From the NCBI GenBank assembly GCA_030602585.1, contig JAUVZJ010000002.1, positions 67,262 to 100,853 on the forward strand: a stretch of DNA of 33,592 bases, in the 5' to 3' direction. Positions within the stretch are counted from its first letter, which is position 1. Each line of letters opens with the position of its first letter. Below, piece after piece: positions 1 through 20,757 of this stretch. Source of the DNA: Candidatus Methanophagales archaeon (lineage in GTDB: Archaea; Halobacteriota; Syntropharchaeia; Alkanophagales; Methanospirareceae). The notes beneath the pieces are model-generated. The model was given only the letters and a program-made list of their open reading frames with translations. It did not search any database and was not told where the DNA came from. The position numbers and the translations under genes were made by a program.

Positions 1-126
1 GAATATTACACCGATGACCGGCATAAGAAGCAGCATCTTGTCCACCTTTAACTTTAACAACATCACCACTACCTCCATAACTATCAATATTGCAACAATC
101 AGTATCCCTATACTCAATGGTTCCAT
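1..126 (-). CDS. N-terminal part of a small membrane protein, cut by the window edge
   Basis: An open frame on the minus strand starts at ATG 126-124 and runs off the window at position 1, giving about 42 residues (start MEPLSIGILIVAILIV). The visible part is almost entirely hydrophobic: one membrane helix at residues 5-24, a short Lys-containing turn, then the beginning of a second. A purine-rich GAGGTATC stretch (minus strand, 138-131) sits a few bases upstream of the ATG and can act as ribosome binding site. AT-rich DNA at 150-200 offers several TATA-like boxes. The gene follows the coiled-coil membrane protein in the same direction with a 75-nt gap, so it may belong to the same group. The family cannot be named from this fragment. 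Confidence 0.55.
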   Translation of the reverse strand, partial: MEPLSIGILIVAILIVMEVVVMLLKLKVDKMLLLMPVIGVIF

Positions 127-201
127 ATCCGATACCTCTTCCCCTTTACCTTAATATATCTATAATATACATATACGACATATTATTTATTATATATTAT
201 A

Positions 202-1476
202 TTATTTTGCTTTTATATACCTTAACCTCTCGGAATCATATATCAACCTCGAATGAGCATCAGAAGCTAAAAGCCTGTATCTGTGAATAAATCCACGGAT
301 GTCAGAATATGAATCTGATATTGACTTAAGTTCCTCAATCTCGCTCATCTTATCTTTTGCCCAATATTCCACGGGATAGACTTCCGTTGTTGGATTCTCC
401 CTTGCTATTTCCTCCTCAATTTCGAATATCTTGTTATAAACCGCCTCCAGAGCGGAAATTGATTTTATTATGAGCGCCTCACCATACCCCCGCAGCTTTC
501 TCATCTGTGAAGGCAACATGCACTCCTCTATACTTTTCCTTATCTCTTCTACCTCTCTTTTATCTTCTTCTTTTTCCGAAATTTCAACTACTACATTTGT
601 CAGCACAAACGTGTCTTCTTTATACATCTCAAACGCATCCTTCAGTAGCTCAACCAACCTTTCAATCACGCTTTTCAACACTTTTGATGCATTCTCGTAA
701 TTTCCATGCCCTATGCTATGCTCGACAATTTTCAGGTCGGTTCTGATTCTGGACGTATCTGCATTTGCACTCTCTCTCCCTTCCACTTCCAAACTATTTG
801 CATTCCGCAAACAGGTTCTCAGCGTTTCTTCCAGGATTGAAGCCACTTCATTCATAAACATGGATAGCTCAAGTGAATCCATTTCAATGTTCTCTCCATC
901 TCTTAGCCTGGATTCTATCTTCTCTATCTGACCGCGTATATTCTCATACCCTGCGTTTTCGAGCTTTCTTATACCTTCCAAATAATCCCTGCATTTATCC
1001 ATCATCCTCGAATAAAGGACGACCTCATGCCTGTCTTTTATGCCCTCAAACATCTTAATCACCCATTCAACATCTGCAAAGACTACTTTCTTTATCTTCG
1101 TTCTGTCTATTCTTGTCTTTCCATTTACCACACATCCCAGCTCAAATAAGCCCTCTTTTACCCGCCTCAACTCCTCCCTGAATTCCTTTGTGCTTATCCC
1201 GTATTTATCTTCGAAATCGTATAAACTACGCATTTGTTCTACATACCGATTTGCAACCCCCATGATGTCCTGCTCCATTACCTTCTCCTTTACGTTCTTC
1301 TTCCTTACCGTAACGATATATCGAGCCAGGAACGCCGCTACTATTGTTGCAGGGATGAACATGAGTATAAAGGTTATTGCAGAGTCCGACCCGGTATTGA
1401 AGAGTATGAAGATGGCGAGAGCAATTAATGCTAAATACGCTAATGGAACGATTATCCTATACCTCCTCATACGCAA
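202..1476 (-). CDS. Membrane-anchored coiled-coil protein of the FtsZ-like locus
   Basis: This 424-residue protein has a hairpin of two membrane helices at the N-terminus (about residues 8-27 and 33-54). They are bracketed by Arg/Lys-rich segments (RMRRYR before, VRKKNVKEK after), which predicts that both the N-terminus and the roughly 370-residue remainder lie in the cytoplasm. The remainder is charged, almost free of Gly and Pro, and reads as long alpha-helical or coiled-coil segments. I do not recognise a named family. The start overlaps the 3' end of the upstream FtsZ-like gene by 20 nt, so the two are probably translationally coupled; ATG 1470 is an alternative start with less overlap. 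A membrane-tethered helical protein coupled to a tubulin-fold protein suggests an anchor or adaptor, which is inference from context only. Confidence 0.8.
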   Translation of the reverse strand: MRMRRYRIIVPLAYLALIALAIFILFNTGSDSAITFILMFIPATIVAAFLARYIVTVRKKNVKEKVMEQDIMGVANRYVEQMRSLYDFEDKYGISTKEFREELRRVKEGLFELGCVVNGKTRIDRTKIKKVVFADVEWVIKMFEGIKDRHEVVLYSRMMDKCRDYLEGIRKLENAGYENIRGQIEKIESRLRDGENIEMDSLELSMFMNEVASILEETLRTCLRNANSLEVEGRESANADTSRIRTDLKIVEHSIGHGNYENASKVLKSVIERLVELLKDAFEMYKEDTFVLTNVVVEISEKEEDKREVEEIRKSIEECMLPSQMRKLRGYGEALIIKSISALEAVYNKIFEIEEEIARENPTTEVYPVEYWAKDKMSEIEELKSISDSYSDIRGFIHRYRLLASDAHSRLIYDSERLRYIKAK

Positions 1477-2398
1477 GCCTCCTTATCTCACGCAATCTTT
1501 CCAATTGGTCGAACTTATAGGTGAACAAATTGGTTATCGCTGCTATGTTCCGATTTGTAATGGATACAGCCAGATGGCACTCTTTTGAATGCGAGAGCAT
1601 GAATTCCTCTATCTGCTCTCTATCCACACTCTTACTTATAATATAATATTTTGGCACTCGAAGAAAGGAGACGCTCTTCTCACTACCTATCGGTGCATCA
1701 GAAACGCTGAGCTTCTCCAATGAAACACGAAGAAGCGTTCTAAGGTCAAGAGGTTTGTGCCTCAGAAAAGGGAAGATATAACCCCACAATCCTTTCGTAA
1801 GCTCCGAAGCCCTCGATAATACCACATATCCGGGCTCATTATCAAAAGACAAAGCCTTTACAACCTCATCCATAGGCATGGACAATTGCATCTCATCGGG
1901 TAACGAACCTAAGGGTGATGTCCCTGTAAGGATGTCAGCGATGCAAGATGCAATATACCTGTTATAGCTTGGATAAAAATCTTCGAAATTTGGAAGGTGC
2001 GCTATTCTCTGGTTATCCGCGATTATAAATGAGTTCACATGCTCCTTTAGCTTTTCCATCGAATAATATGCATTTATTGTCTCCTCTCTTTTTTCCCTTC
2101 TGTTCGTAGGCAAAACGCCAACGAGAAACATTTTTATGTTCAGCTCAGTCAGTATTCCCGGTATGGTGGACGTTATGTTACTATCACCAAGTCCGGCGAA
2201 TAAAAAAGCAAAATTAACGCTTTTGCCTTTTACCTGTTTTTTTAACTTCGTTTCTATTTTATCATTATCCTTGTCGCTTTTTTCTTCCGGCTTGGGCTTG
2301 ATAACGATTGGCTTCGCTCTTCTTATCGCTTTATATTCCAGTAAAGCATCGAGAATTGCTCCACCTGCGTTTCCTATTCCGATGAATAGGTATGTCAT
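1457..2398 (-). CDS. Highly divergent FtsZ/CetZ (tubulin superfamily)-like protein
   Basis: The N-terminus MTYLFIGIGNAGGAILDALL matches the first nucleotide-binding loop and helix of CetZ/FtsZ (GxGxAGG, residues 7-13). Around residues 95-130 the order VGVLP, then E, NAYYSMEKL, then VNSFIIADNQ follows the CetZ/FtsZ pattern VLP...E...NA...L...VD..I..DN. A later YNRYIASCIADI segment fits the T6 helix. The tubulin signature loop (GGGTGSG) is replaced by AGLGDSNITS near residues 68-77, and the stretch between the first loop and this site is short and filled by a Lys/Glu-rich linker (about residues 28-58). At 313 residues it is shorter than CetZ or FtsZ. Superfamily membership is read from motif order; loss of GTP hydrolysis is inference. 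It heads a leftward operon with a membrane coiled-coil gene and diverges from two secreted, anchored proteins. A relationship to the FtsZ-like families described next to membrane-remodelling genes is possible but untested. Confidence 0.75.
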   Translation of the reverse strand: MTYLFIGIGNAGGAILDALLEYKAIRRAKPIVIKPKPEEKSDKDNDKIETKLKKQVKGKSVNFAFLFAGLGDSNITSTIPGILTELNIKMFLVGVLPTNRREKREETINAYYSMEKLKEHVNSFIIADNQRIAHLPNFEDFYPSYNRYIASCIADILTGTSPLGSLPDEMQLSMPMDEVVKALSFDNEPGYVVLSRASELTKGLWGYIFPFLRHKPLDLRTLLRVSLEKLSVSDAPIGSEKSVSFLRVPKYYIISKSVDREQIEEFMLSHSKECHLAVSITNRNIAAITNLFTYKFDQLERLREIRRLAYEEV

Positions 2399-2412
2399 AT
2401 TATTCTCTTAAA

Positions 2413-2425
2413 AAAATTTATAGTT
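2413..2425. promoter_or_regulatory. Shared TATA-like box between divergent operons
   Basis: AAATTTATAG, centred near 2420, reads CTATAAATT on the other strand. It lies about 26 nt from both the minus start codon at 2398 and the plus ATG at 2447. That is the archaeal TATA-to-start distance, so both transcripts would begin at or next to their start codons (leaderless). The gap between the two genes is only 48 nt, leaving room for little else. Assigned from position and composition only. Confidence 0.5.
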
Positions 2426-2446
2426 TATTGTGCTTTATATTTTTTG

Positions 2447-3424
2447 ATGAAAAAGCGAAGTTTGGCTACATTAATGACATTACTGCTAACCTTGATTATA
2501 TTCACCACCCTGTCTTTTTCCACACCTGTGGTAGGCTCAGACGAGCTGAAGAGGGAGCTACTTGAAGATATAATATCAGTGGATAAGCCCGAATTATTTG
2601 GCGAGTATGGTGAGTTAGATATTGCAAAGGCAAAGATGCAGGCGGTGATACAGGGTATGGAAGGTAGCGAGGTAACCCGAAATACAAAGGAATGGGTGGA
2701 TATTTTCCTCGGAATTATTGATGATTTTGAAGGAATCGCGCATTTAAACGAAAGTTCTGTCCCTTCAGACCACGTAGGAGCTATTGAAACCGCAGATAGA
2801 ATAAATACGTCCATAAATACGCTCAGCGGACACGAGATAGCGGAAGCGGAAATACCAATGCTTACAGAGCTCGCGCTTAAGCAATTTTACAGGAGGGAGG
2901 GGAAATTCTTTGAGGATATTGCGAGGGATGAGGAAGAAACAAGGGAGAAGATCGAATATGAGAAGATAAGTTCAATTTCATATAAAAAAGGTGGCATATA
3001 CACGATAAGCGATGCGAGCAGGATGGAGTTCGAGTCAAGAAGAGAAGAATGGGTATATAAAAGGGAGATGAAAAAGGCATCGGAATATATAAATGCATCA
3101 ATGTCACATCTTGATAATGCAAGAAACCCCTCCTCAGATTTCTTTGGCGCTGCCGCTGCTTTTAGGGAGATAATAAAAGCGGGGGATTCGTTTGATGAAG
3201 CGAAGAAAATATATGAGGAACATAAGGATAAAGAACTGGAGAATGTAAAAGGGATTGAAAATGAGATAAGAAATGTTTATTACAGTTTGATGCGTGATAT
3301 GCTTAAGGACGTTGCAATTTATCTTTTTTTCCTTTCCATTTTCACCGCTATAATATGGTGGGATTTCAGAAGATGGGGTGATGCGTTGGATGATACCATG
3401 TTGGGGGAAGAGCTTATTGGTTAG
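2447..3424 (+). CDS. Secreted alpha-helical protein with C-terminal membrane anchor
   Basis: The 325-residue product starts at ATG 2447. A TTG three bases upstream is in frame but less likely, because the TATA-like box places transcription start at about 2447. A signal peptide with a basic start (MKKRSLATLM) and hydrophobic core ends near residue 30 (STPVVGS). The next roughly 250 residues are highly charged and helical with no recognised domain. A single membrane helix lies near the C-terminus (DVAIYLFFLSIFTAIIWW), followed by a short tail of about 20 residues rich in acidic residues. This is a type I topology: helical ectodomain outside, small tail inside. The gene overlaps the next one by up to 47 nt, indicating co-translation. 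Family unknown; the shared architecture with the downstream protein suggests partners in one surface complex. Confidence 0.8.
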   Translation: MKKRSLATLMTLLLTLIIFTTLSFSTPVVGSDELKRELLEDIISVDKPELFGEYGELDIAKAKMQAVIQGMEGSEVTRNTKEWVDIFLGIIDDFEGIAHLNESSVPSDHVGAIETADRINTSINTLSGHEIAEAEIPMLTELALKQFYRREGKFFEDIARDEEETREKIEYEKISSISYKKGGIYTISDASRMEFESRREEWVYKREMKKASEYINASMSHLDNARNPSSDFFGAAAAFREIIKAGDSFDEAKKIYEEHKDKELENVKGIENEIRNVYYSLMRDMLKDVAIYLFFLSIFTAIIWWDFRRWGDALDDTMLGEELIG

Positions 3425-5852
3425 GATTGCAATTGGAACTGTTGTACTCTTTGCTCTTTTGAGCTGTGTGCAGACTGCAGGAGCATCGGATATAGAAGTA
3501 TATCCAGAGACCATAAAAATACCATTCAATCAGCCAAAACAGCCAGACGAGACTGTATTTCAATCGGGGACAATAACAATCACTAATCATGGTGTAAATG
3601 ACACGAAGGTGGAGATTCAATCTGACCTCGGCACTATTACACCAAACCCTCCTATTGCAATCCCTGCTGGACAACCTATAGAAGTTACGATTGAGGCTTC
3701 ATCAGATGCAGGAGAGGGGCCGCATGTCCTTACAGTGAGAGATGCAGACGGAGAGGTAACTACAGTCACCGTAATCATAGAATATAAAGCACAAATTGTG
3801 GTATCGCCTTCTACAATCCATTTTGGGACGAGATATGATCCGCTTCATCGAACTGAGACACGGACAGAAACAGTTACGATCAGTGAGCATTTTGGATATA
3901 AAGCTGCCGGAAGCCTCACAATAGGAAAAATTGGGAACGAGTGGGTTACGATAAAAGGTGCTCCACCAAATTGGATAGGGAAGGGCTCTTCTGCTAAGAT
4001 TGAATTTCAGATAAGTCCTGAAGAGGAGGCTATTAATAAAAACGAATATTCATGGGGATATCGCATTTCGAGCAGTAATGCTGGCTCTGCTACGATAGAT
4101 ATTGATGCATACATATTGATGCCACCAAAGCTTGGCAGACTTTACGATGAAGAACTGGAAATAAAATTCGATAAGCCAAAGGGAACGGTTTCGAAATATG
4201 ATAGGTATATTGATGTGCGAGTGAGAAATGAAGGTGACGAGACACTGTATTTCAATAGCAGGTTCACAGAATATCCAAGCGGAATAACGATTAGGATAGT
4301 TAATCCTTCGGGATCGGTTTCTGGGAAGCCTAGCAGTGAAAACATCAGGCTTCATATCGTCACACCGTACGACGCACCCGAAGGAACATACACTGGAAGG
4401 CTGGATATAGATGCAACAGATAAAGATGGTACATATGATGCCGGACATGGAGAAGTGGACATAACCATAAAGATAAAGTGGCCGGTTGATTTCAACATTT
4501 CTTCTACTTCTGTTTATTTCACAGCATCTCCACCTTCTATTGATTTTGGGTCCATAGAGCTGAAAGAGCAAGGATATGAAAAGAAAGAAGTGAATATAAC
4601 ATTAACAGAGTTCTATCGCTACAAGCCGGTGCGGAATTTACGGCTTCCAAAGAGTGGTGAATACAGGAACTGGCTAAAAGAAGAGATAGATTTCGCTGAA
4701 ATTCCCCCGGGTGAGTCGAGAAACATTACACTCAAAATAGAACCGGGATTGGAGGCAGTGCCTAAGTACTATTTGTGGAAATATGATATAAGTGCTTCTG
4801 AGATAAGCGCAAAGAGAATGGAAGTAAAGGCGATGGTTGTGCCGATAAATATCCCTGAGATGATAGAATATTTGAAGTTATTTAGAGAAAGCACCCTTTA
4901 TAAGAGTTATCCATCGTCAGAAGTTATCATATCAAACGGTGTAGAGATGCTGGAAGTAGTAGAGAGAAGCGAAATAGGTGCTGAGGACTGGAAAAAAATA
5001 CCCATCTTGATGAAAGGAACTCTCTCGCTACTATTATCGCTGAACGATGCTATTGTATTCACGGACGAAAAAACGTATGGGGAAGCGGTGGAGAGCTTAT
5101 GGACTGCCTGGATATCAACGTCCACAATAGGCTCGAATTCTAATCTGACCAATTGGGATATATCTGGGTATGCAAAGGATATTTCAGCAGGTGCGGATAA
5201 GACAACGGAGGAGGTGTTGATGGACGAGGCGAAGATGCTTGAATTGCGAGGCTGGAACATAAAGAAAGCAGTGGAGCACGCAATGGCAATGGACGACATA
5301 AGCGGACTAAAAGAGGAAGAAAACGTGCTCGAATCCGCTCTTTCATATCAATACGCCGCTACTATATATGGTCTGCTCGACGACAAGGAAAAGAGAATAG
5401 AATGCGCCTATGAGGAATCTTTGCTCATGGATAAGCATGATGAATTGGTAAGTGATGCAACAGACCTTCGTATTAAATCGGATAATATCGTATCAAATAG
5501 CAAGGAGAACGACCTTATTACAATCAGAATTGTTAGAATCGGGGACATATATCTCCTTTTAAATCCGTATAAATACGATACTTTTTCTGCGAGCTATGGC
5601 TCAGCGGAGAGATACCTTGAGGACGCATCAAAGAAGTATAAGGTTGCAGGCGAGCTGCTTATGGCTGAGAATACAAACGATGATTTAAATAAACTAAAAG
5701 GCGAAAGGAGATATATACTATCTTTGTTCTTCATTATGTGCATACTGTATGGTGTGGCTTTCATCTACGTGATAAACCGGGTTATCATGGGCACGATGGC
5801 TTATATGAGGGACATGTATGAGCGAGAGGTGGGGGATATTATGATAACGTAA
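3378..5852 (+). CDS. Large Ig-like surface protein with helical stalk and C-terminal anchor
   Basis: The product is about 824 residues if GTG 3378 is used. ATG 3381, ATG 3390 and TTG 3417 are in frame; TTG 3417 follows GGGGGAAG and would give a shorter, typical signal peptide. The signal segment (IAIGTVVLFALL) ends near AGAS at residue 37. Four beta-rich Ig-like domains follow (about 40-135, 138-246, 250-368 and 375-495). Domains 2 and 4 look like internal duplicates, each starting SPPSIDFG- or SPSTIHFG-like and ending in a W.Y.IS motif. Residues 495-775 are helical, then one membrane helix (FFIMCILYGVAFIYVI) and a short basic/acidic tail. It overlaps the preceding secreted gene and so shares its operon. 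The role is unknown; the architecture suits a cell-surface stalk or adhesin-like scaffold tied to the FtsZ-like locus. Confidence 0.85.
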   Translation: MMRWMIPCWGKSLLVRIAIGTVVLFALLSCVQTAGASDIEVYPETIKIPFNQPKQPDETVFQSGTITITNHGVNDTKVEIQSDLGTITPNPPIAIPAGQPIEVTIEASSDAGEGPHVLTVRDADGEVTTVTVIIEYKAQIVVSPSTIHFGTRYDPLHRTETRTETVTISEHFGYKAAGSLTIGKIGNEWVTIKGAPPNWIGKGSSAKIEFQISPEEEAINKNEYSWGYRISSSNAGSATIDIDAYILMPPKLGRLYDEELEIKFDKPKGTVSKYDRYIDVRVRNEGDETLYFNSRFTEYPSGITIRIVNPSGSVSGKPSSENIRLHIVTPYDAPEGTYTGRLDIDATDKDGTYDAGHGEVDITIKIKWPVDFNISSTSVYFTASPPSIDFGSIELKEQGYEKKEVNITLTEFYRYKPVRNLRLPKSGEYRNWLKEEIDFAEIPPGESRNITLKIEPGLEAVPKYYLWKYDISASEISAKRMEVKAMVVPINIPEMIEYLKLFRESTLYKSYPSSEVIISNGVEMLEVVERSEIGAEDWKKIPILMKGTLSLLLSLNDAIVFTDEKTYGEAVESLWTAWISTSTIGSNSNLTNWDISGYAKDISAGADKTTEEVLMDEAKMLELRGWNIKKAVEHAMAMDDISGLKEEENVLESALSYQYAATIYGLLDDKEKRIECAYEESLLMDKHDELVSDATDLRIKSDNIVSNSKENDLITIRIVRIGDIYLLLNPYKYDTFSASYGSAERYLEDASKKYKVAGELLMAENTNDDLNKLKGERRYILSLFFIMCILYGVAFIYVINRVIMGTMAYMRDMYEREVGDIMIT

Positions 5853-6329
5853 GTAACCCATCAAAAGTTTTGTCCTCCACTTCACCTTAAAAATCACAAG
5901 CTCCAAGCAAAGCAGCATTGCATACTCCCTTTCTCTCCTTTCGCCAAAACGCATAGCGCGTGCCAATTTATTGCACTGAGCGGCAGGATTCCCGTTCTTC
6001 GTAATGTATCTGTCCGCGCCTTTCTTCCATGCTTCCTCTATAATTTCCGGGTTCTCTATCCCGGTGAAGAAAACAAAAGGGATGCTATCCCGTGTTTCTC
6101 TCACTTCTTCCAGAAATTCGAGTCCGTCCATTCCCGGCATCCTGCAATCAGAGATAATTACGTCAAAGCGCCCTTTTTCGAGTTTAGCCAGCGCTTCTTC
6201 TGCGAAATCCACACTGGTGATTTCAAATTCACCTTCCCTTCTCAGGAATATCTGTGTCAACTCCAATACCATTGGGTCGTCATCCACATGCAAAACACGT
6301 ATCCGCACTGGGTTTAAATATTCATCCAT
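5718..6329 (-). CDS. Response regulator receiver (REC) protein, C-terminus probably damaged
   Basis: A complete receiver domain occupies residues 9-125: acidic pocket D16-D18, phosphoacceptor D61 (IISDCRMPG), T89 (FFTG) and K111 (ITKNG). It should be phosphorylated by a histidine kinase not present here. GGGGGAT lies 4 nt upstream of the ATG and a TATA-like box lies at 6387-6394. After residue about 142 the frame enters the repeat at 5850-5904 and then the antisense of the 3' end of the Ig-like surface protein gene. The last 60 residues are therefore not a believable domain, and overlap the opposite gene by 135 nt. Many archaeal proteins continue from such a REC into PAS or kinase domains, so this is either a stand-alone REC with a chance tail or a truncated sensor. 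REC call firm, C-terminus doubtful. Confidence 0.8.
   Translation of the reverse strand: MDEYLNPVRIRVLHVDDDPMVLELTQIFLRREGEFEITSVDFAEEALAKLEKGRFDVIISDCRMPGMDGLEFLEEVRETRDSIPFVFFTGIENPEIIEEAWKKGADRYITKNGNPAAQCNKLARAMRFGERREREYAMLLCLELVIFKVKWRTKLLMGYLRYHNIPHLSLIHVPHISHRAHDNPVYHVDESHTIQYAHNEEQR
5850..5904 (-). repeat. Repeat copy A, inverted relative to copy B at 8452-8503
   Basis: On the minus strand this stretch reads GGAGCTTGTGATTT, a 9-nt insert, then GTGGAGGACAAAACTTTTGA and GGGTTACTTA. It matches copy B on the plus strand at nearly every other position. It begins at the stop codon of the Ig-like surface protein gene and supplies the last credible codons of the response regulator. The core CAAAACTTTTG is self-complementary. 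The two copies bracket the three response-regulator genes in opposite orientation. Confidence 0.8.
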
Positions 6330-6383
6330 ATTTTATCCCCCTTTTTTTCTTTATCCCTATAGATGAGTAAGAATAAGGGATTT

Positions 6384-6396
6384 GGGCTTATATAGA
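6384..6396 (-). promoter_or_regulatory. TATA-like box for the first response regulator
   Basis: The minus strand reads TCTATATAAGCCC, about 60 nt upstream of the ATG at 6329. This would give a leader of roughly 35 nt that contains the GGGGGAT ribosome binding site. Called from composition and distance. Confidence 0.4.
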
Positions 6397-6434
6397 CAAT
6401 TAAAGTATAACAAAGCGTTCAAAAATTGAACGGA

Positions 6435-7481
6435 TTAATCCAGAATAAGCACCTGCACCTCTTTAGCATTCATCACGTTTAATTCACGCTCCAACCGATG
6501 CAACTCAACCTCACTCAAAGTCCGCGCATCGAATGGCATTGTTAAGCGACACTTACTTGTCGTGACGATGTCCGTCACCGATTCGACGAACCGAAGAATA
6601 ACCTCAAATCCGTTCTGGTCAATGAGGTATTCTAAACCTTCCAGCATGATTACGCTCTCAACGTCATTTTCCGCAAATTCTTTTACTGCTATGCTCAACT
6701 GTGTTATGTTTGTCGGAACAACATGGTTCTCTCCTTTGACATGTGTTAGCCAGGTTATCGGCACGTCCTTTATATTATTGTATTCCTCGTGAACGTGCGA
6801 AGGATTAGTCCTTGAGATGAGCAGCCCTTTAAACCCGTATTCAATTAGTTTGCCGAACAACTTGAAACTCGTATCAGGTTTTTCCTCAACGATCAAATAG
6901 CCTTTACCCTGCTTGAATAATCTATGCAACGCAGATTGCTCAAGTTTTTTCACTCTTTTTTCTGCCTGTTTACGCTCGCGGATTTCTCGTTTCAGTTCTT
7001 CGTTTGCTTCCTCCAGTTCGGCGGTGCGTTCCTTTACTCGCAGTTCCAGTTCGTCATGAGCTTTTCGCAGCGCCTCCTCCGCCCACTTCCGTTCCAGAGC
7101 CCTACGGATGTCCAGAAGCAAGCGTTCCATATCATAGGGTTTTTGCAGATAGCTGAAAGCGCCCATGTTTACTGCTTCCATGGCTGATTCAAGGGAAGCA
7201 TAAGCAGTCAGGATAATAACCTCGGTGCGAGGAGATTTTTTTTTGATGCCTTTCAAGACTTCAATGCCAGATATATCAGGCAGCTTGAGGTCTATCAGCG
7301 CCAGCGACAAATCATCATCTTCTCTTGCTGCTTCTATGCCTTCTTCACCTGTCAGAACGGCTATGGGTCTATAACCTTTGGCTTTTAATACATCCGAAAG
7401 AGTTTCTCCCAATTTGGGGTCATCTTCCACGAGTAATATTTTTGGCTCTTCATTAATTCCGTTATTATCCATTTTCGGCAT
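6435..7481 (-). CDS. Response regulator: receiver, coiled coil, DUF835 output
   Basis: The 348-residue protein starts with a receiver domain (about residues 13-130) with D20/D21, phosphoacceptor D64 (ALIDLKLPD), T92 (ILTAYAS) and K114 (LQKPYD). These are NtrC-like receiver motifs. A long charged coiled coil follows (about 130-180, rich in EELKREIRERKQAEKRVKKL), of the kind that usually links receivers to sensor domains. The C-terminal 165 residues (from GKGYLIVEEKPD to the end) match DUF835, an archaeal domain of unknown biochemical role found at the end of two-component and PAS proteins; it resembles RecA/KaiC-like folds. There is no DNA-binding or kinase domain. It has its own TATA box at 7524-7533. 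It probably acts by protein contact, and its partner cannot be told from the sequence. Confidence 0.88.
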   Translation of the reverse strand: MPKMDNNGINEEPKILLVEDDPKLGETLSDVLKAKGYRPIAVLTGEEGIEAAREDDDLSLALIDLKLPDISGIEVLKGIKKKSPRTEVIILTAYASLESAMEAVNMGAFSYLQKPYDMERLLLDIRRALERKWAEEALRKAHDELELRVKERTAELEEANEELKREIRERKQAEKRVKKLEQSALHRLFKQGKGYLIVEEKPDTSFKLFGKLIEYGFKGLLISRTNPSHVHEEYNNIKDVPITWLTHVKGENHVVPTNITQLSIAVKEFAENDVESVIMLEGLEYLIDQNGFEVILRFVESVTDIVTTSKCRLTMPFDARTLSEVELHRLERELNVMNAKEVQVLILD

Positions 7482-7523
7482 CGTATGCTACGTATGTATG
7501 ATGTTGGAGTATTGAAACACCTC

Positions 7524-7538
7524 TTATATATAACCTTT
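7524..7538 (-). promoter_or_regulatory. Strong TATA box with BRE-like element for the REC-DUF835 gene
   Basis: The minus strand reads AAAGG followed by TTATATATAA. The TATA core is centred near 7528, so transcription should begin near 7502 and leave a leader of about 20 nt before the ATG at 7481. This is the clearest archaeal promoter in the window. Confidence 0.6.
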
Positions 7539-7576
7539 CTGTTCTCTGACCTGCATCTTGTATCCTGTATCTCCAA

Positions 7577-8341
7577 TCACTTTTCTCCCAGCGCACGTTG
7601 AAGCTTTTCACGTTTTATCTCTTCCAACAGCGCGAACAATTTTTCCAGCTCTAAGGGCTTGTAGAGATAAGCAAATGCGCTTAGTTCAAGTCCTCTCTCG
7701 ACCAACGAGCCCATCTCACCCACATAGCCTGTAATCAATATTACCGGAAGATGGGGATATTTCTCTCTTATTTCTCGCAATACGTCCAGCCCGGTTATTC
7801 CATTGAGTTTCATATCTAACAGCACTACATCTTCTTCTGATTTAACACCGTCCATTACCCGGAAGGGGTCGGTCTCATAACGGGCTTTGATGTTTCTTTT
7901 TTGTAATATGCCGCTCAAAGTCATGCAAAATTCGTAATCGTCATCAACAATAAAAATAACACGCTCTTTTTTCAAAGAAGAAAGGAAAGATAGAATCGCC
8001 GTGAAGTCAAGAGGCTTGATTAAAACTCCAAGTGCACCTTGCTCTCGGGCTTGTGATACCAGCGCATCTGTTGAATATGCAGTCATCATTACGACTGGCA
8101 TCTCAGGAGCAATAGATTTGATTTTCACAAAAGCCTCAACACCATTTACTTCCGGCATTTTTATGTCCATCAGAACCGCATCAAAAGGACGCAGCCCTAC
8201 CTTTCTCACCGCTTCTGAACCGCTAAACGCTGTTTCTGCATCATAATCTTTAACCCGTAGAATATCCGCTATTGTCTTAGCCATTAGTGGCTCATCATCT
8301 ACCACTAAGATGCTGAGTTTATCTTCTTCGCTCTTGCTCAT
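7577..8341 (-). CDS. Tandem receiver (REC-REC) response regulator
   Basis: The 254-residue protein is two receiver domains and nothing else. REC1 (about residues 9-122) has acidic D15/D16, phosphoacceptor D59 (VLMDIKMPE), T88 (MMTAYS) and K109 (LIKPLD). REC2 (about 127-245) has D133-D135, D176 (VLLDMKLNG), a T in LITGY and K in LYKPLE. Both look fully competent for phosphorylation. I chose ATG 8341 because AAGAGGTG lies 11 nt upstream; an in-frame ATG at 8383 would add 14 residues from repeat-like DNA. With no output domain it may act as a phosphate relay or by protein binding. It is the first of three same-strand response regulators here; no histidine kinase is encoded in the window. Confidence 0.88.
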   Translation of the reverse strand: MSKSEEDKLSILVVDDEPLMAKTIADILRVKDYDAETAFSGSEAVRKVGLRPFDAVLMDIKMPEVNGVEAFVKIKSIAPEMPVVMMTAYSTDALVSQAREQGALGVLIKPLDFTAILSFLSSLKKERVIFIVDDDYEFCMTLSGILQKRNIKARYETDPFRVMDGVKSEEDVVLLDMKLNGITGLDVLREIREKYPHLPVILITGYVGEMGSLVERGLELSAFAYLYKPLELEKLFALLEEIKREKLQRALGEK

Positions 8342-8389
8342 TTCTGTGCCAACACCTCTTGAAAATCCAAAATCCCAATACATACCAAT

Positions 8390-13519: not shown

Positions 13520-14221
13520 ATGATAAATAGAAAAATGATGCGGCAAATGGGAGGTGGTGGCATTGACGAGGAGAGAGTAAAAAATCAGAAGAAGGCTGTG
13601 AAACAATTAAAGGAAATGGGTGATGTAGAGGTAGGGAGGCTGCAAAATTTGTAAGATGCTATTGAGAAGTTGACAGAAGAAACAGGGACAGAAGCAGAAA
13701 CACAATCGCAGTCAGAAAAACCGATAATTCACAATCCGGCGGTATCAGAATCAGAGTTGAATGAATTTGGAGTCGGAGCCGGGATCGGAAATGAAAATGA
13801 AGTAGTTGACACGGTTACGCTTGCACAACTTATGCAATGGGTGGACAGCGCACTCAATCTCATCGGACTGGAGAAGTTAAATCAGATCGTCGAATTGTAT
13901 GCACTGACCGGTCGTATACCAGAAGAGATGAAGGATACAATTTTAAAAGTCACGGCACTCCCGGACGCCGTTCTAAGCCCGGAGAAGGGCCACATAGAAA
14001 CGAAACACTGCATTATCGCACTGTGCGAATTAGACAGGATTCTCACCGGTGAGCACCAGGAACTGTTCGTGCTTCTAAAGGAGGTGTGCAACGACCACCG
14101 CCCTTTAAAAAATCCCACTGTCAAACACTCTCAAGTCCAAATCAAATCACAATCCCCGGGTCCCAGGAAGACCAAGAAAGAAAAGAAAAAAATAACCCCA
14201 AAACCAAAAAAGAATGGCTGA
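13520..14221 (+). pseudogene. Archaellum accessory FlaD/E-like gene interrupted by one in-frame TAA
   Basis: From ATG 13520 the frame gives 44 codons (start MINRKMMRQMGGGG, end EVGRLQNL), a TAA at 13652-13654, and then 188 more sense codons in the same frame up to TGA 14219-14221. Without the stop it would be one protein of about 233 residues. GGGAGGTGG at 13549-13557 is a strong ribosome binding site that would best serve a start near ATT 13562. The central part (VTLAQLMQWVDSALNLIGLE... then LYALTGRIPEEM) resembles the archaeal FlaD/E domain pattern of W..FL...G...L...L.YY...GWI. The C-terminal 35 residues are a basic Lys/Pro-rich tail. Residues after the stop could be made alone from TTG 13670. 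The FlaD/E assignment is tentative; the interrupting stop is certain from the sequence. Confidence 0.6.
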
Positions 14222-14279
14222 AGCGGCGATTACCACTGCGATAATAACTATTGCTTGCGTGATATGTGCTGAACTAAAA
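14214..14279 (+). pseudogene. N-terminal stub resembling archaellum FlaF/FlaG
   Basis: ATG 14214 overlaps the end of the preceding frame by 8 nt, as in fla operons. It encodes MAEAAITTAIITIACVICAE, the short polar start and single membrane helix typical of the stator proteins FlaF and FlaG. After 21 residues the frame runs into DNA that is the 3' end of the RfcL gene on the other strand. The formally open frame continues to 14573 but is antisense there. This looks like a breakpoint that removed the rest of an archaellum operon. The match rests on 21 residues, so confidence is modest. Confidence 0.4.
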
Positions 14280-15755
14280 GAAATCCCCCAATGTCTTTTG
14301 GTTTTTCACCTCTTTCACCTCCTCTTCCTCGCCTTCTTTTATTCTTTCTATTTCTTCTTTTACAACTTTGGATTTCGCTTCTTTTTTACTTTTCTCCACC
14401 GTTACCTCCTTCTCCCCTTCTCCTACACCTACCGCAATCGCCTCGCGGTATATCCTCTTCGCTTTTTCCTCTCCCTCTTTAGCCCCTATTTCCGTATCAC
14501 TAACCAAAAACGCAATTTGAGGGACATCAAGCCGGAGCGATGCTGTAATATCCACCGCCTTTCTTTCGTCTAAGAAAAAAAACTGCAAAAAAGGAACGAC
14601 AAAGAATCGTGCATAGCTCAGTGGCACTTTGCAATACGCACCTATTTTCTTCGCTATCTCTTCGCGTATAGGCGCGGATTTTCTATCTTCACCACTTCGC
14701 TGCTCGCGTTGCCACGGCGACCGAAAATATCGCCTTTGCCATCCTTCTCTTTTACCGCCCTGCATTTCTTTTGCAGAAAGCACGCCACAAGCCATTAAAC
14801 TGGATGCATAGCGCCAGAACTTGAAATTCTCACAGCGTCTTGCTCTTCCTAAAAACGTATCCGCCCTGCTCAGGTAATGCAGCCCGTGCAAAAAGCTTTC
14901 TTCATCATATTCATACGAAAAATTCTTATATATCCATTGTATGCTTTCCTCTGGCGTCTTGTCAACACTGTAAAGAGAGAAAAGCGCTTCTTGCATATCG
15001 TAGCCCTCTACACCGAAGATTTTATTCAATACCGCAAAAATGTCCTCCTCAACGTCCCTTCCTCCTGTCGCTATGTCTCCCTTCTCTAATTTCGATTCCG
15101 ACATTGAAATAGCCTGCAAGTCGTTTATTGCGGACCTCAAATCACCATTAGCGTTTTTAGCCAGAATGCGCAGAGTTTCATCAGCTATCTCTATCCCTTC
15201 GTCATCGCTTATCTCACTCAGCACACGAAAAACCTTCCCCGGTTCTACCTGCAGGAACTTAATTGTCCTGCAATTCCGCTGCAACGCTTTTCCCATCCCG
15301 TATTTGTCGTTCGCGGTGAGGATCATCGGCTGTGTGCTTTTTTTCACTATCTCAGTTATCGCCTTTTTTCCACCCCGATCTTCGTTGCCATGCAGGTTGT
15401 CAGCCTCGTCCAAAATGATTAATCTTGTCGTGTGACTGAAAGTATTGCTTGTGGAAGCCGGTCCTACTATACTTTTTATCACTCCTTCACTTCTCTGGTC
15501 TGATGCGTTAAGTTCTATGACTTCCCATCCGCGCTCGGAAGCAAGAGCATACGCGGCTGATGTCTTTCCACAGCCCGGAGGTCCGTGAAGTATAGCAGCT
15601 TTCTTCGACTTTGCCTTATAGACCGCCTCAGCCCACTCTTTTAGTTCTTTTATCGCTTCTTCGTTGCCCACAACTTCTCTTAACTTCTTTGGGCGGTATT
15701 TCTCTGTCCATTCCACGCTACTCCCCTGCATATCCATTATATCATAGACACGCAT
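14274..15755 (-). CDS. rfcL: Replication factor C large subunit (clamp loader)
   Basis: The protein loads the PCNA sliding clamp together with RfcS. The N-terminal WTEKYRPKKLREVVGN is the RFC box. Walker A GPPGCGKT lies at about residues 58-65, and Walker B ILDEAD (DEAD box) at about 114-119. The C-terminal third is low-complexity Lys/Glu. It ends with QKTLGDFF, a PCNA-interacting (PIP) box at the very C-terminus. The frame is open back to 15959, but that extension is antisense to rpiA. I place the start at ATG 15755 (MRVYDIMDMQGSSVEW); ATG 15737 is equally possible. The resulting length of about 490 residues is normal. The 3' end meets the archaellum-like remnant head-on with a few bases of overlap. 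Confidence 0.95.
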   Translation of the reverse strand: MRVYDIMDMQGSSVEWTEKYRPKKLREVVGNEEAIKELKEWAEAVYKAKSKKAAILHGPPGCGKTSAAYALASERGWEVIELNASDQRSEGVIKSIVGPASTSNTFSHTTRLIILDEADNLHGNEDRGGKKAITEIVKKSTQPMILTANDKYGMGKALQRNCRTIKFLQVEPGKVFRVLSEISDDEGIEIADETLRILAKNANGDLRSAINDLQAISMSESKLEKGDIATGGRDVEEDIFAVLNKIFGVEGYDMQEALFSLYSVDKTPEESIQWIYKNFSYEYDEESFLHGLHYLSRADTFLGRARRCENFKFWRYASSLMACGVLSAKEMQGGKREGWQRRYFRSPWQREQRSGEDRKSAPIREEIAKKIGAYCKVPLSYARFFVVPFLQFFFLDERKAVDITASLRLDVPQIAFLVSDTEIGAKEGEEKAKRIYREAIAVGVGEGEKEVTVEKSKKEAKSKVVKEEIERIKEGEEEEVKEVKNQKTLGDFF

Positions 15756-15789
15756 CCTTAATATGTTTTTGATTAGCTCTAAAAAAAGA

Positions 15790-15801
15790 AAAGTTTTAAG
15801 A
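15790..15801. promoter_or_regulatory. TATA-like box shared by rfcL and rpiA
   Basis: AAGTTTTAAG is centred near 15796 and reads CTTAAAACTT on the other strand. It lies about 30 nt from rpiA ATG 15826 and about 41 nt from rfcL ATG 15755. No other convincing box fits between the genes. This stretch also resembles the AT-rich inverted repeats near 20653 and 32382. Confidence 0.35.
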
Positions 15802-15825
15802 AGGGAAAAACTCCAGATTGAGAAT

Positions 15826-16518
15826 ATGAGTGAAGATAAAAAGAGAAAGAAGAAAAAGGAAAAAGCAGCAGAATCCGCAGCTTCTCTGATAAAAGACGGT
15901 ATGGTAGTGGGTCTCGGCACGGGGTCTACGGCAGAATTTGCGATAAGAAGGATAGGCAACAGGATAAAAGATGAGGCGCTCGATGTTTTGGGCGTTCCTA
16001 CTTCGCTTAGAACCGAAACGATAGCAATAGAATGCGGGATTCACGTTACCACACTTTCTGAACATCCTTCTCTGGATATATGCATAGATGGAGCAGAACA
16101 AGTGGATTCTCAACTAAATTTGATAAAAGGCGGATGGGGCTCGCATACGAGGGAGAAAATAGTGTCTTACGCAACAAAAAAACTTGTTATCTGTGTTGAA
16201 GAGGAGAAAATAGTGGAGTTGCTAAATAAGGCTGTTCCTTTAGAAGTTTTACCTTACGCCGTGAAAGTAGTGGAGAGCCAGGTGAAAGAGCTTGGAGGTA
16301 TGCCTGTTTTGAGGAATGAAGGAAATAAAGGGGGATATTTTATAACGGAGAATGGGAATCTGGTGATAGATGCGGATTTTGGCGTTATAAGTAATCCGGA
16401 AGAAATGAGCGGTGTTCTTTCTTCGGTTGTCGGCTCTGTCGAGCATGGAATATTTACGAATGCTACTGAAGTGCATGTGGGAGATGAAAAAGGAGTTAAG
16501 GTATTAAAAAGAGAATAA
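15826..16518 (+). CDS. rpiA: Ribose-5-phosphate isomerase A
   Basis: The enzyme interconverts ribose 5-phosphate and ribulose 5-phosphate, feeding nucleotide synthesis and the ribulose monophosphate route. The start is ATG 15826 (MSEDKKRKKKKEKAAESAAS); frame upstream of this is not conserved. Phosphate-binding GLGTGSTAEF lies at about residues 30-39. The active-site block reads DGAEQVDSQLNLIKGGWGSH then TREK. The Asp, Lys and Glu equivalent to E. coli D81, K94 and E103 are present, but the position of D84 (DGAD) is Glu, and the usual GGGGA is GGWGS. The C-terminal GNLVIDADFG and VEHGIF motifs are standard. The 230-residue length fits. Basic Lys-rich residues 5-13 precede the fold. It is followed by mfnB after 24 nt, probably one transcript. 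Confidence 0.94.
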   Translation: MSEDKKRKKKKEKAAESAASLIKDGMVVGLGTGSTAEFAIRRIGNRIKDEALDVLGVPTSLRTETIAIECGIHVTTLSEHPSLDICIDGAEQVDSQLNLIKGGWGSHTREKIVSYATKKLVICVEEEKIVELLNKAVPLEVLPYAVKVVESQVKELGGMPVLRNEGNKGGYFITENGNLVIDADFGVISNPEEMSGVLSSVVGSVEHGIFTNATEVHVGDEKGVKVLKRE

Positions 16519-16542
16519 AAATAAAGAAGAGGCGTGATAAAA

Positions 16543-17259
16543 ATGAAATTGTTGGTGAGCCCGAAGGATATGGAGGAGGCGAAGGCGGTGATTCGCGGAA
16601 ATGCTGATATTGTAGATGTGAAGAATCCGAAAGAAGGTTCTCTTGGCGCTAATTTCCCCTGGATTATAAAGGCAATAAAGGAATTGGTGGAAAAAGAGAA
16701 AGGAGACGGTGTAAAAATAAGTGCTGCGATAGGAAATTTCGATTATAAGCCGGGGACTGCTTCTTTAGCCGCGTTAGGTGCTGCATCTGCCGGTGCAGAA
16801 TATATAAAAGTCGGATTGTTCAAAATAAAAACGAGGCAGGAGGCGATAGATTTGCTTACCGGGGTTGTTAAAGCGGTGAAAGACTTCGCACCAACCAAGA
16901 AAGTCGTTTCTGCTTTCTATTCTGACTACAAACGAATAAATTCGATTTCGCCTTTTGAAATTGCGGAAATTGGGAAAGAGGTGGATATAGACGTGGCGAT
17001 GGTGGACACGGGTATAAAAGACGGTAGGACAACATTAGAGTTTCTGAGTGAAGAAGAGCTTAAGACGTTTGTTTCGGAATCGAAAGCGCTGGGACTGGAG
17101 ACTGCTATTGCGGGCTCGCTTAAATTTGATGATATTCCTGCGATAAAAGCGATAAAAGCCGATATAATTGGTGTTAGGGGTATGGTATGCGGTGGTAACA
17201 GAGAAGACCGTGTAAGGGAGGAGTTGGTGAGCGAGTTGAAAAGGATGGTTGCGGAGTGA
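16543..17259 (+). CDS. mfnB: (5-formylfuran-3-yl)methyl phosphate synthase
   Basis: MfnB condenses two molecules of glyceraldehyde 3-phosphate to the furan precursor of methanofuran, the first C1 carrier of methanogenesis and its reversal. The 238-residue TIM-barrel protein keeps DVKNPKEGSLGANFPW, with D25 and Schiff-base lysine K27, and the second lysine in VDTGIKDGRT (K159). I chose ATG 16543 because GAGGCGTGA lies 5 nt upstream; GTG 16534 would add three residues. Late motifs LETAIAGSLK and IGVRGMVCGG are typical phosphate-binding loops of this family (formerly DUF556). It follows rpiA in the same direction. It is the main sign of C1 metabolism in this organism. Confidence 0.95.
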   Translation: MKLLVSPKDMEEAKAVIRGNADIVDVKNPKEGSLGANFPWIIKAIKELVEKEKGDGVKISAAIGNFDYKPGTASLAALGAASAGAEYIKVGLFKIKTRQEAIDLLTGVVKAVKDFAPTKKVVSAFYSDYKRINSISPFEIAEIGKEVDIDVAMVDTGIKDGRTTLEFLSEEELKTFVSESKALGLETAIAGSLKFDDIPAIKAIKADIIGVRGMVCGGNREDRVREELVSELKRMVAE

Positions 17260-17348
17260 AAGTATCTGCTCAAAATTCGTTGAATTTTGAACGGACAGTG
17301 AAAAATGAAAAATGTAAAGTGCAAAAGTCAAAATAAACCTTTCTGTAT

Positions 17349-17386
17349 TGTTTACCGCCGAGATCACTGAGAGCGCTGAGATGAGA
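17349..17386 (+). repeat. ACCGCCGAG-type repeat copy
   Basis: TGTTTACCGCCGAGATCACT followed by GAGAGCGCTGAGATGAGA is a near copy of 13312-13349. On the minus strand it supplies the last codons of the broken small gene at 17364-17585. Confidence 0.7.
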
Positions 17387-17585
17387 TAATTAAAATCTTT
17401 TTACCCTTTATTTTTCCATAAACGGTCTCATTAACCGGGATTTGCACCTCTTCTCCCGATATCAGCAGCTTTGCATCCACTTCTTACACTAATTCCACCT
17501 CTAAATCACCTCCTTCAACCTCTACCCGCTCACCCTCCGATAACTTCTCAAAATCCTCCATTGATTTTAATCTCACTTTTTTCAT
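17364..17585 (-). pseudogene. Small gene after DUF3841, interrupted by an in-frame TAA
   Basis: From ATG 17585 the minus strand encodes MKKVRLKSMEDFEKLSEGER and continues to EVELV. It then meets TAA (17486-17484) and continues in the same frame with EVDAKLLISGEEVQIPV and ETVYGKIKGKKILII up to TGA at 17366-17364. Both halves have coherent, beta-rich coding character and belong to a single protein of about 73 residues. Another nonsense codon is not needed if the TAA was once a sense codon such as TAT or TAC. It begins 6 nt after the DUF3841 stop, so the two formed an operon. The family is unknown; a small partner or antitoxin-like role is only a guess from position. The last residues come from the repeat at 17349-17386. 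Confidence 0.55.
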
Positions 17586-18356: not shown

Positions 18357-19901
18357 TTATCCATCTTTTACACTTTCTAAAATCACCTCAAATATATCCT
18401 TTATTTCCGGTGGTAATTCCTTCAATCCATCGGCTTTCTTAGGCCCGTCTCTTTTCTTATTATAATCTCGTGGAGATTTAGCACAATCAAAATCGGGAAT
18501 GAAATATTTCTCAATGCAGTCTTCTTTCAGACAATAAACAGGATGGCTGTCATTCCCGAAGGTGTTCTTCATATCTTCGATCGTCTTACAAAATTTGAAT
18601 TTGGAAGCATTTATGGTAAGGGTGTTGTATTTATCACAGACATTTCCTGCGGTATCTCGTTTATCTCCATCAAGAATGACTGCACACATGTATGGTGTCT
18701 TGGGGATGGTATATAACAAGTGCTTCCAATTATCCCCATTCAAATGGTAAATCCCAACCTTGTTCATGATTTCAAACCAATTCTCATGCCACTTTTCCTT
18801 CAAATGCTTTTCTAAGAGGATTTGTAAAATATATGCATCACTTGTTCCTTCAACATAAAGGTGGATGTCTTTAAGGCTTGTTGTATGCGGCAAATAACCT
18901 GCGAACGTGTTCGGGTCTCCTTGATTTTGCTTCAGGTCAATTTTGATAAACTTCTCTTCTATTGGAGTGTAGAAATACACTGAGACCCTATCTTTTTTGT
19001 CTTTCCACAAAATGGGATTGACGAAGGTTGGATCCTGCGTTGCGATAAATATTTGTCTCTCTTTGGATTCATTGAGCAAGAAGTTTAAGAATTCTTGCTT
19101 TACAAAAGGATTCAACCCAAGCTCAGGCTCATCTATTAAGACTATTTTTTCATCACTAAACAAAATATCCACTGCTAAGCAGGCTAATGATCTGACACCC
19201 GAACCTTGCTCTGACAGCGGCGTTTCAAAGTCCTCACCATCTACTTTTCTAATTAATTTCTCATATTTTTCATCATCGATTTTCGCATCAACAATTCTAT
19301 TGAGAAAATCTATCCATTTACGTTTCTGAGAACCTTTCAATTCCTTGTTTTGTATGTATTCTTCAAAATCTTTTTCTTTATAATTTTGAAGACGTTGCTC
19401 CGGGCAATAAAGTACATTTCTCTTAATTTCCTCTATGACATCGCTATGGATGAAAATTGAGAAATGCTTTGCGTTTAAGCCATAAGCGTCACGGGGCTTT
19501 TCCATGACTATGTGGTTACTAATTTGTCCACATGATGCGTTTTTCAATTTTTCTTTTTGCTTTTCCAAAACTCTTGGAACAAGTTGGTTTATTTGTTCTT
19601 CATCAAGAGATAATTCCACCATCATTTGCGTTTCTCGATCCTTCAAATAAAAGTCGTTGTATCCAAGAGTGAGAGAGAGACACATAATATCGGAATCACT
19701 CTCTCTGAAATCTTCACATTCTGGGCAAAAGTATTCATAGCCACCTAACTCCAGCTTCCCGAGCGACTGAATAAACTCTAATAGGTTTGTCTTTCCACAA
19801 TTGTTTGGACCTATGACGATGTTTAAATCTCTTAAATCTTTCAACTCCGCATGTTTGACGTTTCTGTAGTTCTTTATCTCGATTTCCCTAAAAATTATCA
19901 T
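18357..19901 (-). CDS. OLD-family ATPase with TOPRIM nuclease domain
   Basis: The 514-residue protein has an ABC/SMC-type ATPase half: Walker A GPNNCGKT (31-38), signature-like LSEQGSGVRSL (229-239) and Walker B IVLIDEPELGL (253-263), with an ATQD switch (287-290). The C-terminal half is a TOPRIM domain with the acidic residue in YVEGTSDAYIL (E351) and the DxD pair in ILDGDKRD (D411, D413). OLD proteins are ATP-controlled DNA nucleases used in phage defence, alone or with a helicase (Gabija). No helicase is present here, so it is a class 1-like OLD or partners with the upstream fragment. Its ATG overlaps the upstream stop (ATGA). An unusual CPEC motif sits at residues 59-62 in the first insertion. 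Confidence 0.88.
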   Translation of the reverse strand: MIIFREIEIKNYRNVKHAELKDLRDLNIVIGPNNCGKTNLLEFIQSLGKLELGGYEYFCPECEDFRESDSDIMCLSLTLGYNDFYLKDRETQMMVELSLDEEQINQLVPRVLEKQKEKLKNASCGQISNHIVMEKPRDAYGLNAKHFSIFIHSDVIEEIKRNVLYCPEQRLQNYKEKDFEEYIQNKELKGSQKRKWIDFLNRIVDAKIDDEKYEKLIRKVDGEDFETPLSEQGSGVRSLACLAVDILFSDEKIVLIDEPELGLNPFVKQEFLNFLLNESKERQIFIATQDPTFVNPILWKDKKDRVSVYFYTPIEEKFIKIDLKQNQGDPNTFAGYLPHTTSLKDIHLYVEGTSDAYILQILLEKHLKEKWHENWFEIMNKVGIYHLNGDNWKHLLYTIPKTPYMCAVILDGDKRDTAGNVCDKYNTLTINASKFKFCKTIEDMKNTFGNDSHPVYCLKEDCIEKYFIPDFDCAKSPRDYNKKRDGPKKADGLKELPPEIKDIFEVILESVKDG

Positions 19902-20623: not shown

Positions 20624-20652
20624 CTCTTACCTTCTAATATTTATTCACAAAC

Positions 20653-20671
20653 CTTTTCTTAAAAAGAAAAG
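20653..20671 (-). terminator. AT-rich inverted repeat after the HsdS remnant
   Basis: CTTTTCTT-AAA-AAGAAAAG has 8-bp perfect arms and sits in the 62-nt gap between the HsdS remnant and the nuclease stub. Similar AT-rich stretches occur at 15780-15800 and 32384-32400, so it may be a dispersed element rather than a true terminator. Confidence 0.35.
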
Positions 20672-20685
20672 CTTTACCAAAAGAA

Positions 20686-20757
20686 TTATTTTTCGCACAG
20701 CTCTTCCAACCTCACCTTCTTCCACCCCTCCTTTAATGCAATGCTTTCTTCACTCAT
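20686..20757 (-). pseudogene. hsdS: HsdS specificity subunit reduced to its first 23 codons
   Basis: ATG 20757 overlaps the YhcG stop (ATGA) and encodes [20 protein letters not shown] then CEK and TAA. The pattern EGWKKVRLEELCE is the standard opening of type I specificity subunits (LPEGW..V.LGE.C). The target-recognition domains are gone; the next gene starts 62 nt on and is unrelated. Short length limits certainty, but position directly after HsdM and YhcG is where HsdS is expected. Confidence 0.65.

Follow-up and report, generated by a model that had tools for sequence, protein, structure and literature searches.

What does a tubulin relative do in an operon with membrane-bound coiled-coil proteins, back to back with a pair of genes for surface proteins? 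This question is raised by a stretch of 33,592 nucleotides (nt), in the following called the window (G000:C66:67262-100853), from the genome of a member of the Methanophagales, i.e. of the anaerobic methanotrophic archaea of group 1 (ANME-1), which are major anaerobic methane oxidisers and cannot be grown in pure culture. An earlier note, made from the sequence of the window alone, had described five genes that are read outward from one 48-nt region, and while its open reading frames, overlaps and gap stand apart from the choice of start codons, the set proved to be larger. The leftward operon comprises the genes for TubS, CC424, TM146, TubL and S352, and its last part runs past the left edge of the window; of TM146, which is the further leftward membrane protein of the note, only the 5' part is inside. 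The genes for SP326 and Ig824 follow rightward, divergent from TubS. That this gene set is a system is well supported, and its products probably constitute a membrane-spanning machine of the tubulin superfamily that is tied to surface proteins and remodels the membrane or envelope.

The association of the seven genes is evident from their recurrence, for which the ANME-1 data consist of metagenome bins. The order S352-TubL-TM146-CC424-TubS / SP326-Ig824 is retained, as far as the contigs reach, in 26 further ANME-1 genomes of 10 genera, and the same seven-gene order is found in G042, a genome of a second family of the class (37% identity for TubS, 65% for TubL). Most of the ANME-1 genomes sampled encode TubS, and those with TubL are nearly identical to this group. 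In a set of 59 genomes, both occur in 27, only one in 3 and neither in 29; within the family, the respective numbers are 25, 3 and 7 (Fisher p 4e-5, uncorrected for kinship). A broad profile search (A2), which also drew in CetZ sequences, was left out of the TubS counts. The three genomes with only one of the two genes are 66-87% complete, and one of them (G018) has a different TubS. Even within one genus (g3) the two genes are jointly present in G023 and jointly absent from G003 (98% complete) and G031. In G040, which belongs to the family of G042, SP326-Ig824 lie on a separate contig (L073, L211) and yet are retained, whereas all genes are together in the sister G042; this split looks like a recent rearrangement in which both halves were kept. 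The closest named relative of TubS comes from Methanophagales CR_Bin_179 (95% identity), and the named relatives are Methanophagales/ANME-1 records or bins under other methanogen names. Ig824 was detected, in a sample of 394 genomes, in ANME-1, in the second family and in eight full-length cases outside the class. Short intergenic distances alone can keep a gene order, and it could be argued that unrelated envelope genes are merely co-expressed here, but this is highly improbable, given an order that is kept across deep divergence, the retention of both halves after the split in G040, the joint absences within genera and the homologous sets on haloarchaeal plasmids that are described below. 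That the neighbours recur not only across 10 ANME-1 genera but also in a further family of the class and, in the form of homologues, in haloarchaea, together with the tubulin membership, supports the earlier proposal of one system that spans cytoplasm, membrane and surface.

TubS itself is a member of the tubulin superfamily, as the note had claimed: it matches PF00091 with 35.1 bits (cut-off 33, E 2.2e-8), and its matches among the PDB profiles are FtsZ and CetZ (best 2.4e-7). The AlphaFold models of TubS and Ig824 were built on shallow alignments and are of low confidence outside the Ig (immunoglobulin-like) domains. In case of TubS, the mean pLDDT is 48 and the pTM 0.54, and Foldseek with this low-confidence model gave FtsZ and CetZ as top matches (prob 1.00, TM ~0.41); the tubulin relationship anticipated for this protein is supported by the profiles. 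The term “FtsZ-like” is appropriate with respect to the superfamily, but not in the sense of a normal FtsZ-like GTPase, as the GTP-binding loops are lost, and TubS also scores far under the FtsZ equivalog cut-off (TIGR00065, 20.5 vs 295.2). Read from an alignment with haloarchaeal TubS, CetZ and FtsZ, the T1 loop (GIGNAGG) is retained, the T2-T3 region is deleted and T4 is degenerate (AGLGDSN). The DxxD of T7 is also not found, since the first Asp is lost and the second is mostly but not always present (SMPMDEVV). Because the T4 signature and the T2-T3 loops are gone, TubS is, judged by its sequence, a pseudo-tubulin and not a tubulin-type GTPase. An initially considered full T7 (PLDLRTLL), with which TubS would complement TubL, was rejected, as T7 falls at residues ~171-185 when TubS is aligned with its haloarchaeal counterparts and FtsZ.

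The history of this loss can be followed in living lineages. All TubS sequences, including the haloarchaeal ones, are monophyletic (100/99) and form a clade that is separate from CetZ and FtsZ. The loops are intact in haloarchaeal TubS and in the G018 copy (T4 GLGGGTGCG; T7 DIQD in the haloarchaea), whereas TubS of the second family has a half-decayed T4 (AGLGGEIGG) and the deleted T2-T3 region. As the intact TubS of G018 is the sister of the degenerate clade, the loss of the pocket is placed on the branch that leads to ANME-1 and its sister family. The pseudo-tubulin is nonetheless under purifying selection (dN/dS 0.21-0.35), and its C-terminal half is strongly conserved.

The second tubulin relative of the operon, TubL, retained what TubS lost. 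Six tubulin-superfamily genes are present in the genome, namely two for FtsZ, two for CetZ-like proteins and those for TubS and TubL, and the latter matches Tubulin_2 (PF13809) with 82.3 bits (cut-off 27, E 5.2e-23). Among 12 TubL sequences, the T1, T2, T3 and T6 motifs are invariant, as are T4 (GGGTGSS, with the last Gly replaced by Ser) and a T7-like LDLNDL, and the tubulin-like N-terminal domain is followed by SMC-type coiled-coil matches at residues 297-448. TubL is thus likely the GTPase of the system, as far as its motifs tell. Stop codons that had been counted within TubL of G040 and G042 are located past the true gene end. The idea of a defence system was abandoned, as PADLOC gave only weak coiled-coil matches of TubL.

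No Pfam family scored above its cut-off for CC424, TM146, S352, SP326 or Ig824, and their topologies are therefore described on the basis of hydropathy. CC424 is predicted to have a transmembrane hairpin (residues 8-26 and 33-51) and a long cytoplasmic helical or coiled-coil part, in agreement with the earlier description; the overlap of its gene with that of TubS amounts to 20 nt from the TTG start and to 14 nt from the ATG two codons on. Signal peptides and C-terminal transmembrane segments are predicted for SP326 (286-304) and Ig824 (780-798), again as had been noted, and S352 likely has a signal peptide, a transmembrane segment and a cytoplasmic tail of 80 residues. Of the four Ig-like domains that had been assigned to Ig824, three are confidently modelled as beta-sandwich domains (~38-367), and the fourth (~368-490) is likely, but poorly modelled. 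In structure, they match Ig repeats of the Hydin and the adhesin/cadherin type.

The best conserved part of SP326 is its cytoplasmic tail, with a mean pairwise identity of 72% vs 61% in the ectodomain and the pattern W..LDDTxLGEELI. Similarly, the tail of Ig824 is 63% identical vs 45% in the distal Ig part; its pattern is YxxDxYEREVGDIxV, and the C-terminal motif of Gly, Asp or Asn and a hydrophobic residue persists in haloarchaea (..SGDFLI). The two tails are alike (SP326: LGEELI), and such conserved, receptor-like tails suggest a common cytoplasmic partner. The surface proteins could also be read as the principal actors. If Ig824 and SP326 bind a sheath, an S-layer or a syntrophic partner, and the tubulins only place them, the system would serve cytoskeleton-linked adhesion or positioning. 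This would agree with the tandem Ig/cadherin-like domains, with the fast evolution of the distal part and with the sheaths and Ig-bearing sheath adhesins of ANME-1 cells (PMC11576556), but the conserved set has no sheath or S-layer gene, and sheaths or partners are not known for the haloarchaeal relatives, so that we regard it as unlikely. Quite improbable is a sensor or signalling complex across the membrane that would use the tubulin-like proteins as nucleotide-dependent switches and not as filaments. While short conserved tails and several single-span receptors would suit such a complex, and Makarova and Koonin left room for FtsZl1 proteins that form no filaments, a kinase, transducer or transcription-factor gene is not part of the conserved set, and the several tubulins per haloarchaeal operon suggest assembly.

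These haloarchaeal operons are the nearest relatives of the system. In eight genomes from outside the class, a homologous operon encodes TubX, TubS, a coiled-coil protein, TubB, a surface protein of ~1000 amino acids (aa), SP326 and the Ig protein. Such an operon is also present on plasmids of Natrinema and of Halobacterium salinarum R1 (PHS2), in the latter as OE_RS12070-OE_RS12025 with OE_RS12060 for TubS and OE_RS12040 for TubB; Halobaculum was checked for TubS only. The ANME-1 profiles recover the haloarchaeal homologues with E-values of 2.4e-49 (TubS), 4e-56 (Ig), 1.2e-20 (SP326) and 1e-8 (coiled coil). A link between both sides is provided by G018, an ANME-1 bin that has not only the normal set but also a copy of haloarchaeal type (L075:1-1215 on the minus strand; L209:175-3474 and 14004-17410) with TubS with intact GTP loops, TubB, a long coiled-coil protein, SP326 and Ig; the two contigs are inferred to be adjacent. 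The coiled-coil protein of this copy (L209:15320-17410) is similar to the ANME-1 family (E 9.3e-37) as well as to the Natrinema protein (3.3e-29), which makes CC424 homologous to the haloarchaeal proteins of 690-708 aa. A gene for a two-domain Cdc48-like AAA protein is located near the haloarchaeal-type copy of G018. The ANME-1 type-A locus has no TubB gene, and TubL is the sole other tubulin there, without being the orthologue of TubB. That TubL is related to the 408-aa tubulin of the haloarchaea by more than the common fold was considered and rejected, as no such homology was found, and a “replacement” of the one by the other therefore refers to the position in the set and not to descent. 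Two genomes of the haloarchaeal type carry an FtsZl1 (PF13809) gene within ~6-11 kb of the TubS operon (G253 L151:7512-17690; G280 L214, L219). Such a neighbourhood is a possible route of FtsZl1 into the ANME-1 set.

The haloarchaeal operon corresponds to Halo_adaptin as described by Makarova et al. 2024 (PMC10936438): next to it lie genes for an AAA ATPase, which is Vps4-like, and for a PQQ-propeller protein, and other genes whose order matches the published one of the winged-helix and ESCRT-III-like proteins (ESCRT, endosomal sorting complexes required for transport). On plasmid PHS2 of Halobacterium salinarum, too, the operon adjoins ESCRT-like genes. That article, in the part available to us, notes for Halo_adaptin a membrane protein, a CetZ relative and a pair of Ig-like proteins, proposes a role in the formation of vesicles or the sorting of proteins, and draws no link to ANME-1 or FtsZl1. 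The ANME-1 set could be a reduced Halo_adaptin ESCRT system for vesicles or protein sorting, with ESCRT-like partners that are encoded elsewhere or are too diverged. TubS, CC424, SP326 and Ig824 are homologous to just those loci that adjoin the Vps4-like ATPase and PQQ-propeller genes, but none of the ESCRT-module genes (Vps4-like ATPase with VAT N-domain, ESCRT-III-like, winged-helix, PQQ) was found in the flanks of the ANME-1 operons. Genome-wide searches of ANME-1 for Snf7 and the haloarchaeal winged-helix family, made with no strong positive control, gave no match, and a search of the window genome for a Vps4-like ATPase returned generic AAA proteins only; these negatives are weak, as the families diverge fast. 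We regard the reduced system as rather unlikely.

How does the ANME-1 set compare with what has been described? With Halo_adaptin it shares an orthologous, CetZ-like TubS, homologous Ig, SP326-like and coiled-coil membrane proteins and the same operon logic, and it differs by the missing neighbourhood of Vps4-like ATPase, ESCRT-III-like, winged-helix and PQQ genes, by the lack of TubB and TubX, by the presence of FtsZl1 (TubL), TM146 and S352, and by a TubS without GTP loops. By its PF13809 match and its tubulin-like domain with a following coiled coil, TubL fits the FtsZl1/Tubulin_2 family that was described together with vWA-linked operons (Makarova and Koonin 2010, PMC2875224). Membership in the FtsZl1-vWA membrane-remodelling operons was rejected on the gene context: unlike these, the conserved genes include no vWA, kinase, OmpA or P-loop GTPase, and a degenerate tubulin and Ig surface proteins are present instead. 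Haloarchaeal TubS very probably corresponds to the CetZ-like Halo.Tub group (Santana-Molina et al. 2023, PMC9871819), which is matched here by description (CetZ-like, quasi-tandem copies, coiled-coil neighbours); in the available part of that study, neither ANME-1 nor any conserved partners among surface proteins are mentioned. With CetZ, the cell-shape tubulins of Haloferax, and with FtsZ, TubS has the superfamily in common, but it forms a clade of its own and has no T4 signature. The components thus belong to described families, and the haloarchaeal side is already known. Our literature search, which was of incomplete coverage, found no ANME-1 tubulin or FtsZ system, and within this coverage the combination of FtsZl1, a pseudo-tubulin and surface proteins in ANME-1 appears to be undescribed.

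Mechanistically, we propose that TubL would be the GTP-dependent, probably self-assembling cytoplasmic subunit, and that TubS, which would descend from a GTP-binding partner, would still have the half of the fold that serves interaction, and may act as non-hydrolysing partner or adaptor. CC424 and TM146, with their putative transmembrane hairpins and cytoplasmic coils, would fix the assembly to the membrane. S352, SP326 and Ig824 would cross the membrane, so that their short conserved tails could dock inside, while the variable Ig or helical ectodomains would extend to the surface layer or to other cells. A GTP-driven assembly could then gather the surface proteins and bend or remodel the underlying membrane and envelope. 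The earlier note had suggested shape, adhesion or remodelling as role; by analogy, we regard remodelling of the membrane or the formation of vesicles as most likely, with shape or adhesion second, because both parent systems have independently been predicted to function in remodelling (PMC2875224; PMC10936438). It is quite possible, and we suggest this tentatively, that the set represents an undescribed transmembrane cytoskeleton of ANME-1 in which FtsZl1 took the place of the small tubulin that had been the partner in an older archaeal system, the other tubulin decayed to a pseudo-tubulin adaptor, and the receptor-like tails provide the link to the Ig surface proteins, which would be an archaeal analogue of the coupling of cytoskeleton and adhesion.

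Several points weigh against the proposed remodelling machine. The whole set is absent from several ANME-1 genomes, such as the 98% complete G003, and is thus dispensable. With a pLDDT of 48, the structural model of TubS is a weak one. TubL and the second haloarchaeal tubulin share only the tubulin fold, and the same role need not follow; an ESCRT partner was not found in ANME-1, which weakens the transfer of the haloarchaeal prediction.

The coordinates are compiled in Table 1. The genes of SP326 and Ig824 overlap by 47 nt. The 48-nt gap contains a TATA-like TTTATAG at a distance of ~19-25 nt to the start of TubS and of ~22-29 nt to the ATG of SP326, and in a comparison of the gap in 12 genomes this element recurs where the gap has a similar length. 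Its position suits both directions, and it may possibly serve as one shared bidirectional promoter.

Table 1. Features of the gene set; negative positions are to the left of the window
Feature	Position in window	Strand or operon	Other coordinates	Description (predicted)
S352	-4100 to -3042	leftward operon	L007:6162-7220	signal peptide, ectodomain, transmembrane segment, 80-aa cytoplasmic tail
TubL	-3045 to -331	leftward operon	L007:7217-9931; G000:C66:64216-66930	904 aa; PF13809
TM146, remainder	to -314	leftward operon, beyond window	L007:9948-10388	
TM146, 5' part	1..126	-		146-aa protein, transmembrane segments and short coiled-coil tail
CC424	202..1476	-		424 aa; TTG start at 1476 or ATG start at 1470
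TubS	1457..2398	-		313 aa; tubulin superfamily, pseudo-tubulin
TubS, codons of residues 66-76 (LFAGLGDSNIT)	2171..2203	-		where GTP-binding relatives have T4 GGGTG(S/T)G
Divergent gap TubS/SP326	2399..2446	.		48 nt if SP326 starts at ATG 2447
SP326	2444/2447-3424	+		326 aa; signal peptide, helical ectodomain, C-terminal transmembrane segment, cytoplasmic tail; ATG at 2447
SP326, cytoplasmic tail (..RRWGDALDDTMLGEELIG)	3359..3421	+		
Ig824	3378..5852	+		824 aa; signal/anchor peptide, Ig-like domains, helical membrane-proximal part, C-terminal transmembrane segment, tail
Ig824, cytoplasmic tail (..YMRDMYEREVGDIMIT)	5775..5849	+		

Outside the conserved set, three successive response-regulator-like genes are located on the opposite strand directly 3' of Ig824 (window 5718-8383), and a cluster at 18357-23322, with genes for an AAA ATPase, a methyltransferase-like protein and a possible nuclease, resembles by eye an island for defence or restriction-modification. 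Elsewhere in the window genome, a neighbouring pair of CetZ genes with intact motifs flanks a gene for a secreted or membrane protein of 285 aa (L178:6568-11135). CetZ genes of G012 (L166) and G009 (L167) are followed by genes for secreted-type proteins of 280-284 aa, and the one of L166 is weakly SP326-like (E 1e-5).

For ANME-1, the conserved tubulin set with its tie to surface proteins is a concrete candidate for the building or shaping of the envelope. The set connects three families that have been described separately, FtsZl1, Halo.Tub and Halo_adaptin. As the homologous operon resides on a plasmid of the genetically tractable Halobacterium salinarum, its function is directly testable. 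For the tubulin superfamily, the TubS lineage documents how a GTPase turned into a pseudo-subunit within a tubulin-type system, with intermediate states that survive in living lineages.

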